Part shown: piece by piece, positions 3,583 to 11,855 of the stretch
How positions within the stretch are numbered: position 1 is the stretch's first letter
Layout: the number at the start of each line of letters is the position of its first letter
Origin: a virus
Virus record (IMG/VR): IMGVR_UViG_3300009076_001992
Coordinates: 1 to 34,539 of that record
Strand: one strand, 5' to 3'
DNA: 34,539 nucleotides
Program-made: the position numbers and the translations under genes
The notes under the pieces: model-generated
Database searches by the model: none
Told to the model about the DNA's origin: nothing
Seen by the model: only the letters and a program-made list of their open reading frames with translations

Positions 3583-3620
3583 TGAAGTTGACTTCATTTT
3601 ATGTTTTAAACTTCATTAAA
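3583..3620. promoter_or_regulatory. Candidate operator cluster for the leftward early promoter
   Basis: A near-palindrome TGAAGTTGACTTCA at 3583-3596 (only the central TG breaks symmetry) contains ACTTCATTTTA at 3591-3601. A second half-site, ACTTCATTAAA, is at 3610-3620. The same 11-mer recurs at 6148-6158 with an inverted copy at 6175-6185 in the rightward control region. The two half-sites here lie over the -10 and within the spacer of the candidate leftward promoter. Shared sites in both early promoters are what a common repressor or Cro would use; binding is inferred. Confidence 0.5.
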
Positions 3621-3625
3621 AGCAA
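3596..3625 (-). promoter_or_regulatory. Candidate leftward early promoter (PL equivalent)
   Basis: On the minus strand, TTGCTT (3625-3620) is followed after 18 bases by TAAAAT (3601-3596). It is about 70 bases upstream of the first leftward gene, in an AT-rich gene-free stretch, and is overlapped by the operator-like half-sites. This is the only reasonable sigma70-type pair I saw facing the operon. Confidence 0.5.
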
Positions 3626-3768
3626 GTGGCTTTATCAAAATAAAGTAAAATATTTTAAATGACAGTTGTCTGTGGTGGTGTAAACTTATACGGAAATCCG
3701 GCTTTCAGTTGCGTTAGCCAATGACATCGCGAACATAGCGGATATCAACGATTGATAATGCTTTTTTG

Positions 3769-3816: not shown

Positions 3817-4137
3817 ATGAATTCTATAGGCGGGCAATACACACAAATGACAGTACAAGAGAGCGGATCTAGCATTGCTCCTTCAGTAGCAGTGTCTGGT
3901 GCTGTTAAAGGAATTGAACCTTTAGTTACTTTAGATTCTGTTGTTGTAAACATATCGCCAGAAGCTTTAAAGCTGCAAAGCTTTGAGCAAGATTACGAAT
4001 CTCCACAAAATGGAGCTGGAACTTTGCCTCCAACTGAGGAAACTCAACCCGATCAAGGTGATGCCGCTCCTGGTCTTATTGTTCCGTTTAATGGTGGTGG
4101 CACATTGCCGCCAGACCCACCAAAAAGTAAGCCTTAA
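3817..4137 (+). CDS. Small acidic hypothetical protein with repeated GTLPP motif (cassette gene 1)
   Basis: A 106-residue protein. The frame could begin earlier at 3766, but ATG 3817 is preceded by GAAGGGG at good spacing, and the upstream in-frame codons run through the inverted repeat at 3769-3791. Residues about 37-52 read L-D-S-V-V-V-N-I-S-P-E-A-L-K-L-Q; the tail is disordered, acidic and Pro/Gly-rich and carries G-A-G-T-L-P-P and G-G-G-T-L-P-P, a near-duplicate 7-residue motif. There is no signal peptide or membrane segment. It begins a three-gene plus-strand cassette (gap of two bases to the next gene). The function is unknown; the repeats may be peptide ligands for a partner. Confidence 0.6.
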   Translation: MNSIGGQYTQMTVQESGSSIAPSVAVSGAVKGIEPLVTLDSVVVNISPEALKLQSFEQDYESPQNGAGTLPPTEETQPDQGDAAPGLIVPFNGGGTLPPDPPKSKP

Positions 4138-4139
4138 TT

Positions 4140-4631
4140 ATGTGGAGTCCTGGCATTTTATTTAGCTGGCTAGTTCTGGTATTGGTAGGGGGGCAACTAG
4201 CGCTTCTATTCAGAGTTGGGGAAGGACATTCTGAGAAAGCCGCAATTTCAGTTTGGCTCGTTATGAACATTCTGATGTTGATATTGACGCCATTCATTTA
4301 CGAAATTTGCGCTGCGTATATAAACTACAGTTACATTATTTGGTATTCCTTTTGGGCTTCACTAAATGTTTTATCAATTTTTAGCATTTACCTCATACAC
4401 ATAAGGTTTAAATTGCCAACCTCCAAACTGGCCGCATACATATCGTTCTCTTTTTTAGCGCTAACTGTAATTCAGGCATGTGGTTTTCTGGACCGAGCTA
4501 TTTTCGAGACAAAAGTCCTAGATGATGTATATAGGTTTTTAATACTTTCTATTAATTTTGCTGTTGTTCCGACAATTTTCATGCAGCTATATCGCAAAGG
4601 TTTGTTGCCGGTTAAAGGAATTTTTAAATGA
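4140..4631 (+). CDS. Polytopic membrane protein (about four TM segments), cassette gene 2
   Basis: A 163-residue hydrophobic protein with likely membrane segments at about 5-24, 37-58, 64-90, 98-114 and possibly 133-152, with short charged loops and a basic C-terminus (Y-R-K-G-L-L-P-V-K-G). It starts two bases after cassette gene 1 and overlaps cassette gene 3 by four bases (ATGA), so the three are a coupled unit. I do not recognise the family. Position between the repressor and the leftward promoter, as with lambda rexAB, and inner-membrane location suggest a lysogeny-expressed exclusion or conversion function; this is inference. Confidence 0.65.
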   Translation: MWSPGILFSWLVLVLVGGQLALLFRVGEGHSEKAAISVWLVMNILMLILTPFIYEICAAYINYSYIIWYSFWASLNVLSIFSIYLIHIRFKLPTSKLAAYISFSFLALTVIQACGFLDRAIFETKVLDDVYRFLILSINFAVVPTIFMQLYRKGLLPVKGIFK

Positions 4632-4978
4632 CAGAAACCATTGGTCTTGCTGTGATTATCGGCTTAGTTGTGGCTGCGACTTGGATTTACTCCAAACTAT
4701 TAAGTCGTCAGGGAATCATTTTTCATGAGAATTCGGCGCAAGAAAGCTTTTCAGCAAGGTCACACCACTTAATTGCTGAAGGCGTAAGAATTGATCAGAT
4801 GCCTTATTCATGGGAGAAGCATGAAGCGCACATTCGATGGGTTGAAAAGCTCTATGAGTATCTTGATGACTATGAAGTTGAGGTTGCTCAAAGCTTATCT
4901 AAAAACTCAGGTTCGAATGTCGTCGCTTACGCTGGAATTCGCATTTGCCCTACGCCTAAACAGGACAGCCAAATTTAA
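4628..4978 (+). CDS. Single-pass membrane-anchored hypothetical protein (cassette gene 3)
   Basis: A 116-residue protein with an N-terminal hydrophobic segment (about residues 5-24, I-G-L-A-V-I-I-G-L-V-V-A-A-T-W-I-Y) followed by a basic stop (S-K-L-L-S-R), so most of the protein is predicted cytoplasmic or periplasmic depending on orientation. The soluble part has S-W-E-K-H-E-A-H-I-R-W-V-E-K-L-Y-E-Y-L-D-D-Y (about 60-82), a Trp-rich amphipathic helix. It is translationally coupled to the polytopic protein upstream and probably acts with it. No known domain was recognised. Confidence 0.62.
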   Translation: MTETIGLAVIIGLVVAATWIYSKLLSRQGIIFHENSAQESFSARSHHLIAEGVRIDQMPYSWEKHEAHIRWVEKLYEYLDDYEVEVAQSLSKNSGSNVVAYAGIRICPTPKQDSQI

Positions 4979-5116: not shown

Positions 5117-5554
5117 ATGAAAAGGATTTTGATTTTATTTTTCGTGTTTTTGATTTCTGCTCATTCGATTGGTCAGGTTTACAAATGCGAAAACAATGGG
5201 GTAACAACCTACAGCCAAACCCAGTGCGGTGAAGATGCAGTTGTTGTAGAAATTAAAACAAATGGACCGGGTAGCAATGATGGCTTTTCAGAAGATCAGC
5301 TCGTTACCGCTTGTGTTGAAATGCACAAGCGCCGACAAGTCTGGAAGGATATCGAGTCCGTAAGAGCAGAAGGTTTTACTAAAAGCTGGGTGAGTGATGA
5401 TAGTGGCCCACGACATATACTTACCGTGAACATAAATGCGAAAAATAGCTATGGGGGTTACGCATCTCCTGAGCCACATATTTGCTTCTTAAACCACAGT
5501 GGTAATGGATTTAGTAAAGTTCAGAAGTTCGTTTATATGGACAATAAAAACTGA
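5117..5554 (+). CDS. Secreted DUF4124-like protein
   Basis: A 145-residue protein with a clear signal peptide: M-K-R, a hydrophobic core I-L-I-L-F-F-V-F-L-I-S, and a likely cleavage near A-H-S-I-G (about residue 19). Mature residues about 20-45 (Q-V-Y-K-C-E-N-N-G-V-T-T-Y-S-Q-T-Q-C) match the DUF4124 pattern (V-Y-K-x-x-x-x-G-x-x-x-Y-S) found in many secreted proteins of gammaproteobacteria. The remainder contains four more Cys/His-type residues but no catalytic motif I recognise. It has its own promoter and ends three bases before the convergent repressor gene. Likely a periplasmic lysogenic conversion product; activity unknown. Confidence 0.68.
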   Translation: MKRILILFFVFLISAHSIGQVYKCENNGVTTYSQTQCGEDAVVVEIKTNGPGSNDGFSEDQLVTACVEMHKRRQVWKDIESVRAEGFTKSWVSDDSGPRHILTVNINAKNSYGGYASPEPHICFLNHSGNGFSKVQKFVYMDNKN

Positions 5555-5557
5555 AAA

Positions 5558-6031
5558 TCACGCACTAGTAGCGTTTTTAACAATAGGTTCTTGTTTGTCT
5601 AAGTTGAGCTTTTTCATGTAGCAGAACTTAGCTACATTTTTTACATTATTGTACTGATCTTCTGTTAAAGGAATAATCTTCATAGTCGTAATCGCAAACA
5701 AGAGCTCGTCAACGAAGTCCTTCATAAATGATTCTGTAATCTGATTGCTAGAAGCAGGATTACCACCACGAAAATAGCCTTCCTTGAGCAGCATCCAATG
5801 CTCTAACGTTTCCTGTCCAGGGATTGTCCTCAAAACTTCAACGACTCTGTCTAGAGTTTCCAAAGATGGATTTTTAGGAGCTTCTGATTTTAGGCTTCCG
5901 AGCTTTGCAATCATCGGATAGTTGATGTTAATACCACGCTCAGCAGCCCTACCATGAACTGATTTTAACTGCTCGCCGGATAAGCTTAATAGGTCCGTAA
6001 TATTTTGCGCGATTACTTGGCCAGTTCTCAT
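5558..6031 (-). CDS. Putative lysogeny repressor (HTH, CI position), no peptidase domain
   Basis: A 157-residue protein. The N-terminal half (about 1-75) looks like a lambda-repressor-type HTH: helices around V-I-A-Q-N-I-T-D-L-L, a central I-N-Y-P-M-I-A-K-L-G, and a closing P-S-L-E-T-L-D-R-V-V-E-V-L, the usual end of an XRE domain. The C-terminal half is helical and has none of the Ser/Lys features of a LexA-type S24 peptidase, so RecA-driven self-cleavage is not expected. It is divergent from the Cro-position gene at 6213 across 181 bases holding operator-like repeats, and its start codon overlaps one arm of an inverted repeat (6031-6039). The repressor role rests mainly on position and fold impression. 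Confidence 0.6.
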   Translation of the reverse strand: MRTGQVIAQNITDLLSLSGEQLKSVHGRAAERGININYPMIAKLGSLKSEAPKNPSLETLDRVVEVLRTIPGQETLEHWMLLKEGYFRGGNPASSNQITESFMKDFVDELLFAITTMKIIPLTEDQYNNVKNVAKFCYMKKLNLDKQEPIVKNATSA

Positions 6032-6147: not shown

Positions 6148-6185
6148 ACTTCATTAAACGCATGCTGACTTGCATTTAAAGAAGT
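6148..6185. promoter_or_regulatory. Candidate operator for the rightward early promoter
   Basis: Inverted arms ACTTCATTAAACGC (6148-6161) and GCATTTAAAGAAGT (6172-6185) pair at 12 of 14 positions around a 10-base spacer. The half-site ACTTCATTAAA is identical to 3610-3620 beside the leftward promoter. The right arm covers the -35 and spacer of the promoter at 6170-6198. Confidence 0.55.
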
Positions 6186-6198
6186 TACGCATTATCTT
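6170..6198 (+). promoter_or_regulatory. Candidate rightward early promoter (PR equivalent)
   Basis: TTGCAT at 6170-6175 and TATCTT at 6193-6198 are separated by exactly 17 bases. The predicted start site (about 6205) is only about 8 bases before the ATG at 6213, and no Shine-Dalgarno sequence is visible, so the first message would be nearly leaderless unless a downstream start is used. Confidence 0.5.
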
Positions 6199-6212: not shown

Positions 6213-6455
6213 ATGTCTTCTAAAAGTGCATCAATGGATAAAGCTACCCAAAAACCATCAGTTCAGATCCAGTCTGGTCTTAGTGAAATGCTCCTAGTTA
6301 GTGGAGAGCTAAAGCGTTTTGCTGATCATAACGATTTCGATTTCAACTCTCTTTACAAAATTGCCAAAAACCAGATTCGTCAACCTGGTGTCGATTATGG
6401 GAATTTGATTCTCAACGCCATAAACAATTGGCCTAAACAAAAAAACAACAATTAA
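6213..6455 (+). CDS. Small protein at the Cro position, candidate regulator
   Basis: An 80-residue basic protein, first gene rightward of the repressor. Residues about 30-75 (L-K-R-F-A-D-H-N-D-F-D-F-N-S-L-Y-K-I-A-K-N-Q-I) are helical and could form a small HTH, but I do not see a canonical motif. Start choice is uncertain: ATG 6213 lacks a ribosome site and M8 (6234) is no better. Position makes a Cro- or CII-like role likely. It is followed 20 bases later by a zinc-finger gene. Confidence 0.5.
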   Translation: MSSKSASMDKATQKPSVQIQSGLSEMLLVSGELKRFADHNDFDFNSLYKIAKNQIRQPGVDYGNLILNAINNWPKQKNNN

Positions 6456-11000: not shown

Positions 11001-11855
11001 ATGGGGGAGTTTTTACAGGGTGTTTATGACGACTTCAAAAGTCGTATTGAGTCACCATTGTTTTTTGCAACTTTTGTATCATGGTGTTTTTGGAACATTG
11101 AATTTGTTTGGTTTGTCTTGCTTGGTGATAGTGTAGGGAAGTATTACAAAATAGTTGATTGGCCATTTGAAACTCTTTACGCATGGGTGCTTCCAGTGAT
11201 AACCGCTCCATTATTCATATTGTTAATGCCTGCGGCGAACAATTTATTAATGTTATGTCGGTACAGATTGCTTTCCTTGTTTCAGCACAAAGTACAAGAT
11301 AGCAAGGGGAAATATAATGATGCGTTGCAGCTCGTTTTATTGGAGAAAAAGACCGAGGAACTATTGTTGAGGTCATCTGCTTTAGACGAAAGGGAGGATG
11401 TTTATGTCGAAGCAAAAGCTAAGTTGGATCAAGACAGTGAAGAGTATGAAAAGAAGTTCAGAGCTTATACACTCCTAAGCCAGTCACTCGAAGGAATTTC
11501 TGATTTTCATAACTGGCAAACAAAGAAATCTGCATATGAGTCAAAAGTTGCAAGATTAGAGAGGCGGTTACGTGGAGACGTGCCTGAAGATGAATCAACT
11601 CAAGTTTCAATGGGCAGTTATGTTTATTTGGAATTTAAATCGTCTGAAAGCATGGACATAATTACCCAAAGGGATATTGAGGGGTATCTTGATGAATTAA
11701 CCTTAGCCGACAAAGTCCCAGTAGCGTTCGTTAATGAGTTGTTAGGTGTGTCAGAAGGAGCTAGTGTTCACGAAAAATTTAAAGCTAGCCCTAATAGCGA
11801 ACCTGAAATGTATCGAGTCAAAGTAGTAGGAGTCGGTATTAAGCTAACACTATAG
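11001..11855 (+). CDS. Two-TM membrane protein with long coiled coil, accessory
   Basis: A 284-residue protein. The N-terminus has Y-D-D-F-K-S-R-I-E-S-P-L-F-F-A (about 9-23), then membrane segments at about 22-42 and 58-84. A charged coiled coil occupies about 100-195 (E-K-K-T-E-E-L, A-K-L-D-Q-D-S-E-E-Y-E-K-K) and a beta-rich C-terminal domain about 205-284. The R-I-x-S-P-L-F opening resembles a group of two-TM bacterial proteins of unknown role that I cannot name securely. It is visibly AT-richer than its neighbours and lies between Q and the late terminator, a favourite site for accessory genes. A membrane sensor or exclusion role is possible but unproven. Confidence 0.68.
   Translation: MGEFLQGVYDDFKSRIESPLFFATFVSWCFWNIEFVWFVLLGDSVGKYYKIVDWPFETLYAWVLPVITAPLFILLMPAANNLLMLCRYRLLSLFQHKVQDSKGKYNDALQLVLLEKKTEELLLRSSALDEREDVYVEAKAKLDQDSEEYEKKFRAYTLLSQSLEGISDFHNWQTKKSAYESKVARLERRLRGDVPEDESTQVSMGSYVYLEFKSSESMDIITQRDIEGYLDELTLADKVPVAFVNELLGVSEGASVHEKFKASPNSEPEMYRVKVVGVGIKLTL

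Follow-up and report, generated by a model that had tools for sequence, protein, structure and literature searches.

The window, by which we mean the whole viral contig of 34,539 nucleotides analysed here (IMGVR_UViG_3300009076_001992), carries between its leftward operon and its repressor a three-gene unit, P1-P2-P3, that recurs in other genomes and is apparently undescribed. The trio is best explained as a self-contained accessory unit in a variable slot of the immunity region. With a probability of about 45% we read it as a lysogen-expressed unit for exclusion or defence, in which P1 would be the cognate ligand of the membrane protein P2. A literature search, the coverage of which left most subscription papers outside, found no description of the trio. 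The analysis defines the unit and finds it in Shewanella prophages and in one family that is related to this genus.

The three genes and the immunity region of the window

An earlier note on this DNA had described a tightly coupled, AT-rich cassette of a small acidic protein with a duplicated GTLPP motif, a four-to-five-TM protein and a single-pass protein, located between the leftward promoter and the repressor, and in these points it was correct (Table 1). P1 and P2 are separated by 2 nt, P2 and P3 overlap by 4 nt (ATGA), and the GC content of the genes is 0.38-0.44 compared to 0.478 for the window. P1 contains 12 D/E and 4 K/R residues; P2 shows five hydrophobic segments, which agree with the five predicted helices, and P3 one. 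The leftward genes span 3526 to 387, and operator-like sites are present on both sides of the region. In the sister phage contig IMGVR_UViG_3300025116_000096 (L002) P1, P2 and P3 follow in unchanged order, with identities to the window of 54%, 87% and 85% and dN/dS values of 0.35, 0.11 and 0.06, respectively. Due to this conserved order and these values the trio consists of real protein-coding genes, all under purifying selection, and the dN/dS values rule out chance ORFs.

Table 1 Features of the trio and of the surrounding immunity region in the window
Feature	Position	Strand	Description
Operator-like site, leftward-promoter side	3609-3627	-	ACTTGCTTTTAATGAAGTT; exact match to the 19-mer pattern
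Candidate trio promoter	3659-3686	+	ATGACA-16-TAAACT; consensus scan; both hexamers kept in L002
P1	3817-4137	+	106-aa acidic protein, two C-terminal NG[AG]GTLPP copies
First P1 motif copy	4009-4032	+	NGAGTLPP
Second P1 motif copy	4090-4113	+	NGGGTLPP
P2	4140-4631	+	163-aa five-helix membrane protein, predicted N-out/C-in
P3	4628-4978	+	116-aa protein, one N-terminal TM, helical part predicted to be cytoplasmic
Repressor	5558-6031	-	assignment based on position, operators and the layout of homologous loci; convergent with the trio
Terminator-like hairpin and T run	5616-5637	+	could end + strand transcripts; consensus scan; within the repressor gene at its 3' end
Operator-like site, cro side	6168-6186	+	19-mer pattern common to 3609-3627
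cro-like gene	6213-6455	+	assigned by position

Since neither the repressor nor the cro-like gene of the window has a credible family match, both assignments rest on position. The repressor call is supported by other loci, where the genes at the equivalent position are of the HTH or CI type in a Pfam tally. The 19-mer pattern ACTTGCWTTTAAWGAAGTT matches exactly at both operator-like sites, while 0.1 matches are expected when up to 3 mismatches are allowed. The terminase of the window phage is of the lambda type (58% identity to lambda gpA over 92% of the query). The repressor is encoded on the - strand and therefore the trio runs toward it. The candidate trio promoter sits outside the operator-like site, and its sequence and that of the candidate terminator are largely kept in L002; the consensus scan that found them gave no excess over shuffles.

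Between P3 and the repressor the window encodes a DUF4124 protein with an N-terminal hydrophobic stretch (5117-5554, +), and four other loci (L006, L017, L025, L032) have DUF4124-like genes within or close to the corresponding slot. Because the other trios inspected go from P3 straight to the repressor, we treated this gene as separate from the trio. Within the leftward genes, an RdgC-like protein is fused to a C-terminal FtsK gamma domain (755-1888, -; E 1.1e-79 and 5.4e-24), while the RdgC ORF of L002 has 293 aa and stops ahead of the FtsK gamma part. Downstream of an integrase-like gene, a 284-aa ORF with 39% GC (11001-11855, +) gave no PADLOC match.

The earlier note had also placed the cassette at the rexAB position, which applies to the site and not to the operon. 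Like RexAB of lambda (and RexABpp of Pseudomonas putida, PMC12894663), the trio is carried by a prophage between the leftward operator and the repressor and encodes a membrane protein. In lambda, however, rexB, rexA and cI all lie on the - strand between oL and oR, with rex downstream of cI, whereas the trio is opposite to its repressor and converges with it. This orientation rules out a rexAB-type operon. It is very improbable that the trio is an abortive-infection pair of the RexAB type with P2 as a RexB-like channel: P2 is similar in size to lambda RexB (163 vs 144 aa), but homology between them is not detectable (hhalign with the 63-row P2 profile, probability 1.3%), and a RexA-like cytosolic partner is missing from the trio.

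On the + strand of lambda, opposite to the leftward operon and cI as in the trio, lies an open frame at 34482-35036, which we take to be SieB. SieB of lambda and P22 resembles the trio as a membrane protein gene in this orientation, but is a lone gene between ral and N that lacks a partner of the repeated-peptide type. With an hhalign probability of 0.2% for P2 against the lambda frame, homology is not detectable here either, and we rejected it as we did for RexB. No repeated and self-consistent motif of the P1 type is known from Rex or Sie. P22 SieA, an exclusion protein of the inner membrane that is polytopic, has 162-164 aa and is expressed in the lysogen, is by its description similar to P2 as a small polytopic inner-membrane protein of a prophage (PMC10883804). 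It differs by three predicted TMs and by acting alone, with no need for other phage proteins (PMC10883804). No family or system tested has the parts of the trio architecture; the function of the trio could still be of a known class.

Recurrence of the unit and the variable slot beside the repressor

Profiles were required to reach relatives of the trio. Neither the locus nor P1, P2 or P3 gave a match in 50,697 phage records searched at the nucleotide level and with tblastn, and the P2 proteins of two other loci (L124, L128) gave none there either. A two-row P2 alignment found nothing in genome contigs, and scans with the flanking gene products returned the sister phage L002 as sole match. The phrog_31674 profile matched 4 genomes among 395 of Shewanella's order; in all four P1, P2 and P3 are present in this order, and no obvious phage genes are seen in the 3.4 kb shown. 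A six-row P2 profile, used on 197 genomes from the family of one of these four, matched 36 of them with up to 8 matches per genome. From the fetched stretches 63 distinct P2s were parsed, with a P1-like ORF upstream in 54 (five other ORFs upstream of P2 were set aside by hand) and a P3 candidate in 48. A wider profile search matched 2/299 genomes of a phylum sample, both already known, and 0/369 of a class sample, where the empty result is uninformative.

As an independent test, 2.9 million viral contigs were scanned at the DNA level for the P1 motif alone. Among the 16 contigs obtained, L117, L121, L124 and L128 have a gene for a small motif protein beside a P2 homologue. On inspection, each of these four also carries P3 and two HTH genes, one convergent and the other located beyond it. 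L117 repeats the known locus L099 and therefore three of the four are new, so that a simple DNA signature of the unit locates new members in contigs. When inspected, the small motif ORFs of L116 and L118 were not next to any P2-like gene, and we regarded them as chance matches. Truncated or broken remnants of the trio were observed on plasmids of Enterobacter asburiae (IncHI2; L132:4031-4614) and Acinetobacter gerneri (L133:3557-4608). In consequence of these relatives the range of the unit is wider than one family.

In many related prophages the trio is found beside repressor-like genes, and it also occurs in some bacterial chromosomes. By eye, a convergent HTH-looking gene is present at 26/63 loci, and in this eye-picked set Pfam assigns HTH_3 to 15 and Phage_CI_repr to 13 members. 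A convergent HTH gene within 1.3 kb was found for 26/46 P2s compared to 39/514 other genes of the fetched stretches, which are centred on the trio and in which P1 and P3 are counted among the others; the counts 26/63 and 26/46 refer to separate sets. In the P2 tree, supported branches require at least 7 changes of the repressor label.

For about one half of the P2 homologues no repressor is adjacent, and therefore the unit is not only a gene set of phage immunity regions. Since, in addition, several P2 loci adjoin ordinary-looking chromosomal genes that recur as neighbours between genomes, a role for the host or for other mobile elements is possible. We regard it as unlikely that the trio is host-physiology cargo, for instance for envelope homeostasis or stress, which moves between chromosomes and phages and takes no part in phage competition. 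The identical neighbours that chromosomal loci keep in several genomes are in agreement with such cargo, as are the plasmid remnants and the P2 tree, in which the window and L002 fall into a clade together with four chromosomal loci (95/90). The concentration of the unit beside prophage repressors and in a slot that holds defence systems argues against it, and a general housekeeping role would leave the variation of the motif between loci unexplained.

This slot was surveyed in Shewanella lambdoid prophages that had been gathered via a P-like replication gene, irrespective of slot content. The trio P1-P2-P3 occupies 3 of the 22 slots read (L029, L033, L035). Other slots match PADLOC models for a retron RT, PtuA/PtuB, a type II methylase, type IIG R-M and PD-Lambda-5 A and B; the tool tied a match to its gene for the RT of L017 alone, and the other assignments (L017, L009/L019, L024, L034) come from gene order, size and Pfam. 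In this slot of the Shewanella prophage L017, a retron-type RT is followed by apparent PtuA and PtuB genes (L017:4215-7439, -). K139-like prophages of the Vibrionaceae likewise have a defence hotspot beside cI, a variable slot with different defence genes (PMC9122126). Those prophages are related to phage P2 and have the slot between cI and the integrase (PMC9122126), while the trio slot belongs to phages with lambda-type terminases and is bounded by the leftward operon and the repressor. The earlier suggestion of superinfection exclusion or another defence gains positional support, given by the retron, R-M and PD-Lambda-5 systems of the slot and by the repressor-like neighbours, and loses the rexAB analogy due to orientation and the lack of homology to RexB. 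As support for a defence function, these slot neighbours amount to guilt by association.

The P1 motif, the membrane proteins and the proposed function

The consensus of the P1 family alignment (A14) is GNGGGxxPP. A strict form of the motif matches 47/60 P1s, which carry one to seven copies each, mostly near the C-terminus. Among the 24 P1s with two or more copies, the variable dipeptide is identical in 64/77 pairs of copies within a protein compared to 17/276 pairs between proteins, and since the latter figure includes related P1s the contrast is conservative. Adjacent copies within a P1 differ at 58% of synonymous but at only 7% of nonsynonymous sites, with pS ≥ 0.2 in 24/24 multi-copy P1s. 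Recent tandem copying is ruled out as the source of the similarity by the pS of 0.58 for adjacent copies. The copies are therefore old and are held alike by selection within each protein. From the sequences we interpret this pattern as selection for recognition by a single partner at each locus, for which the P2 of that locus is the simplest candidate. The motif would then represent a private recognition code that differs between P1s.

An N-terminus that appears Sec-like by a hydropathy rule is found in 30/60 P1s, 20 of which contain Cys-x4-7-Cys; the P1 of the window has no hydrophobic (Sec) signal. In 16 of 60 P1s there is a stretch of the type D-x-V-x-[IL]-S-x-x-A, as in the window P1, and a few have N-termini that look by eye like GG leaders (e.g. 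L056, L106, L113). These leaders would suit a bacteriocin-like system, in which small toxic peptides would be released from P1 by processing and the producer would be protected by P2 and P3. The private motif of each locus and the up to 8 P2 matches within one genome would also fit, but the unit includes no dedicated exporter or processing enzyme and NGGGxxPP looks neither amphipathic nor pore-forming, which makes such a system quite improbable.

The statement of the earlier note that none of the three proteins resembles a known family was nearly right. The window P2 matches phrog_31674, a family of unknown function, with E 1.1e-9, and 39/63 P2 homologues match this family as well. In Pfam at E 0.01 no family matches more than one P1, P2 or P3 member, and the window P2 has no match. 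NCBIfam gave weak FlgM and FLIPr matches alone for P1 members and none for the P2 and P3 of the window, and PADLOC 2.0 profiles matched none of the three window proteins at E ≤ 1. The structure model of P2, made from a six-sequence alignment, has five helices (pLDDT 79) and found no Foldseek match at E ≤ 0.001. Its best VIA match (Z 7.5) lies within the range of common helical arrangements, and weak fold matches such as cytochrome b561 (Z 7.0, rmsd 6.8) are not above the helical background. The P3 model, a long helix and a hairpin, is of low confidence (pLDDT 66). According to the charge bias over the 63 P2s, the N-terminus lies outside, as do loops 2-3 and 4-5. Among the best conserved positions of P2 are S31, W68, Y69, H87, Q112, D118, R119, Y131 and N139; as judged from this topology they are probably mostly periplasmic, with W68, Y69, D118 and R119 in outside regions.

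On this basis we propose that P1, with a Sec-like signal in many homologues, supplies the repeated short N-G-G-G-x-x-P-P motif, which may act as private ligand of its own P2. P2 would be an inner-membrane protein of five helices with a mostly periplasmic conserved face, and P3 its single-pass partner with a helical part that is presumably cytoplasmic. Together, P2 and P3 could form a complex that acts at the lysogen's inner membrane and blocks or aborts infection by other phages, and P1 would set the state of this complex. P22 SieA is a precedent for exclusion at this membrane (PMC10883804). We infer expression of the trio in the lysogen, export of the window P1 in spite of its missing Sec signal, binding of P1 to P2 and the outcome in exclusion or defence. 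The trio would probably help the resident prophage to keep other phages out, and if so, it would constitute a membrane-based defence of a new kind, in which the partner is a coded peptide.

The same features of P1 would also suit communication. The arbitrium system of AimP, AimR and AimX involves a small peptide precursor that is encoded by the phage near its lysogeny control, as P1 would be. The trio differs from it by the lack of an AimR-like receptor, by P2 and P3 being membrane proteins, by the multi-copy motif and by its Gram-negative hosts. In an arbitrium-like scheme P1 would be a multi-copy pheromone precursor, from which exported and processed peptides are sensed by P2 and P3 and inform the choice between lysis and lysogeny. 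Copies that stay alike within a precursor despite synonymous divergence and differ between loci are consistent with this scheme, and so are the Sec-like signals, the Cys-x4-7-Cys stretches, the position beside the repressor and the putatively periplasmic conserved face of P2. We nevertheless consider it rather unlikely. Sec export alone would leave P1 in the periplasm, the trio lacks a DNA-binding output, half of the copies have no nearby repressor, and the repressors that adjoin the trio match several HTH families. A cytosolic receptor of the RRNPP type is likewise missing, with no such match in Pfam and with P2 and P3 in the membrane. If the trio does signal, peptide communication would extend to Gram-negative phages. 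Possible, though doubtful, is a broader peptide-recognition system of Gram-negative phages, in which an exported precursor of alike GNGGGxxPP peptides would be read by its own five-helix receptor and the single-pass partner, and in which a private code of each prophage would control either exclusion or the lysogeny decision.

Just past the cro-like gene of one trio-bearing prophage, a 143-aa ORF (L082:7073-7504, -) contains the copies GNGGGIEPP and GNGGGNEPP and a C-terminal hydrophobic stretch that ends in RK. It represents a second P1-like protein of this prophage, which is possibly anchored in the membrane.
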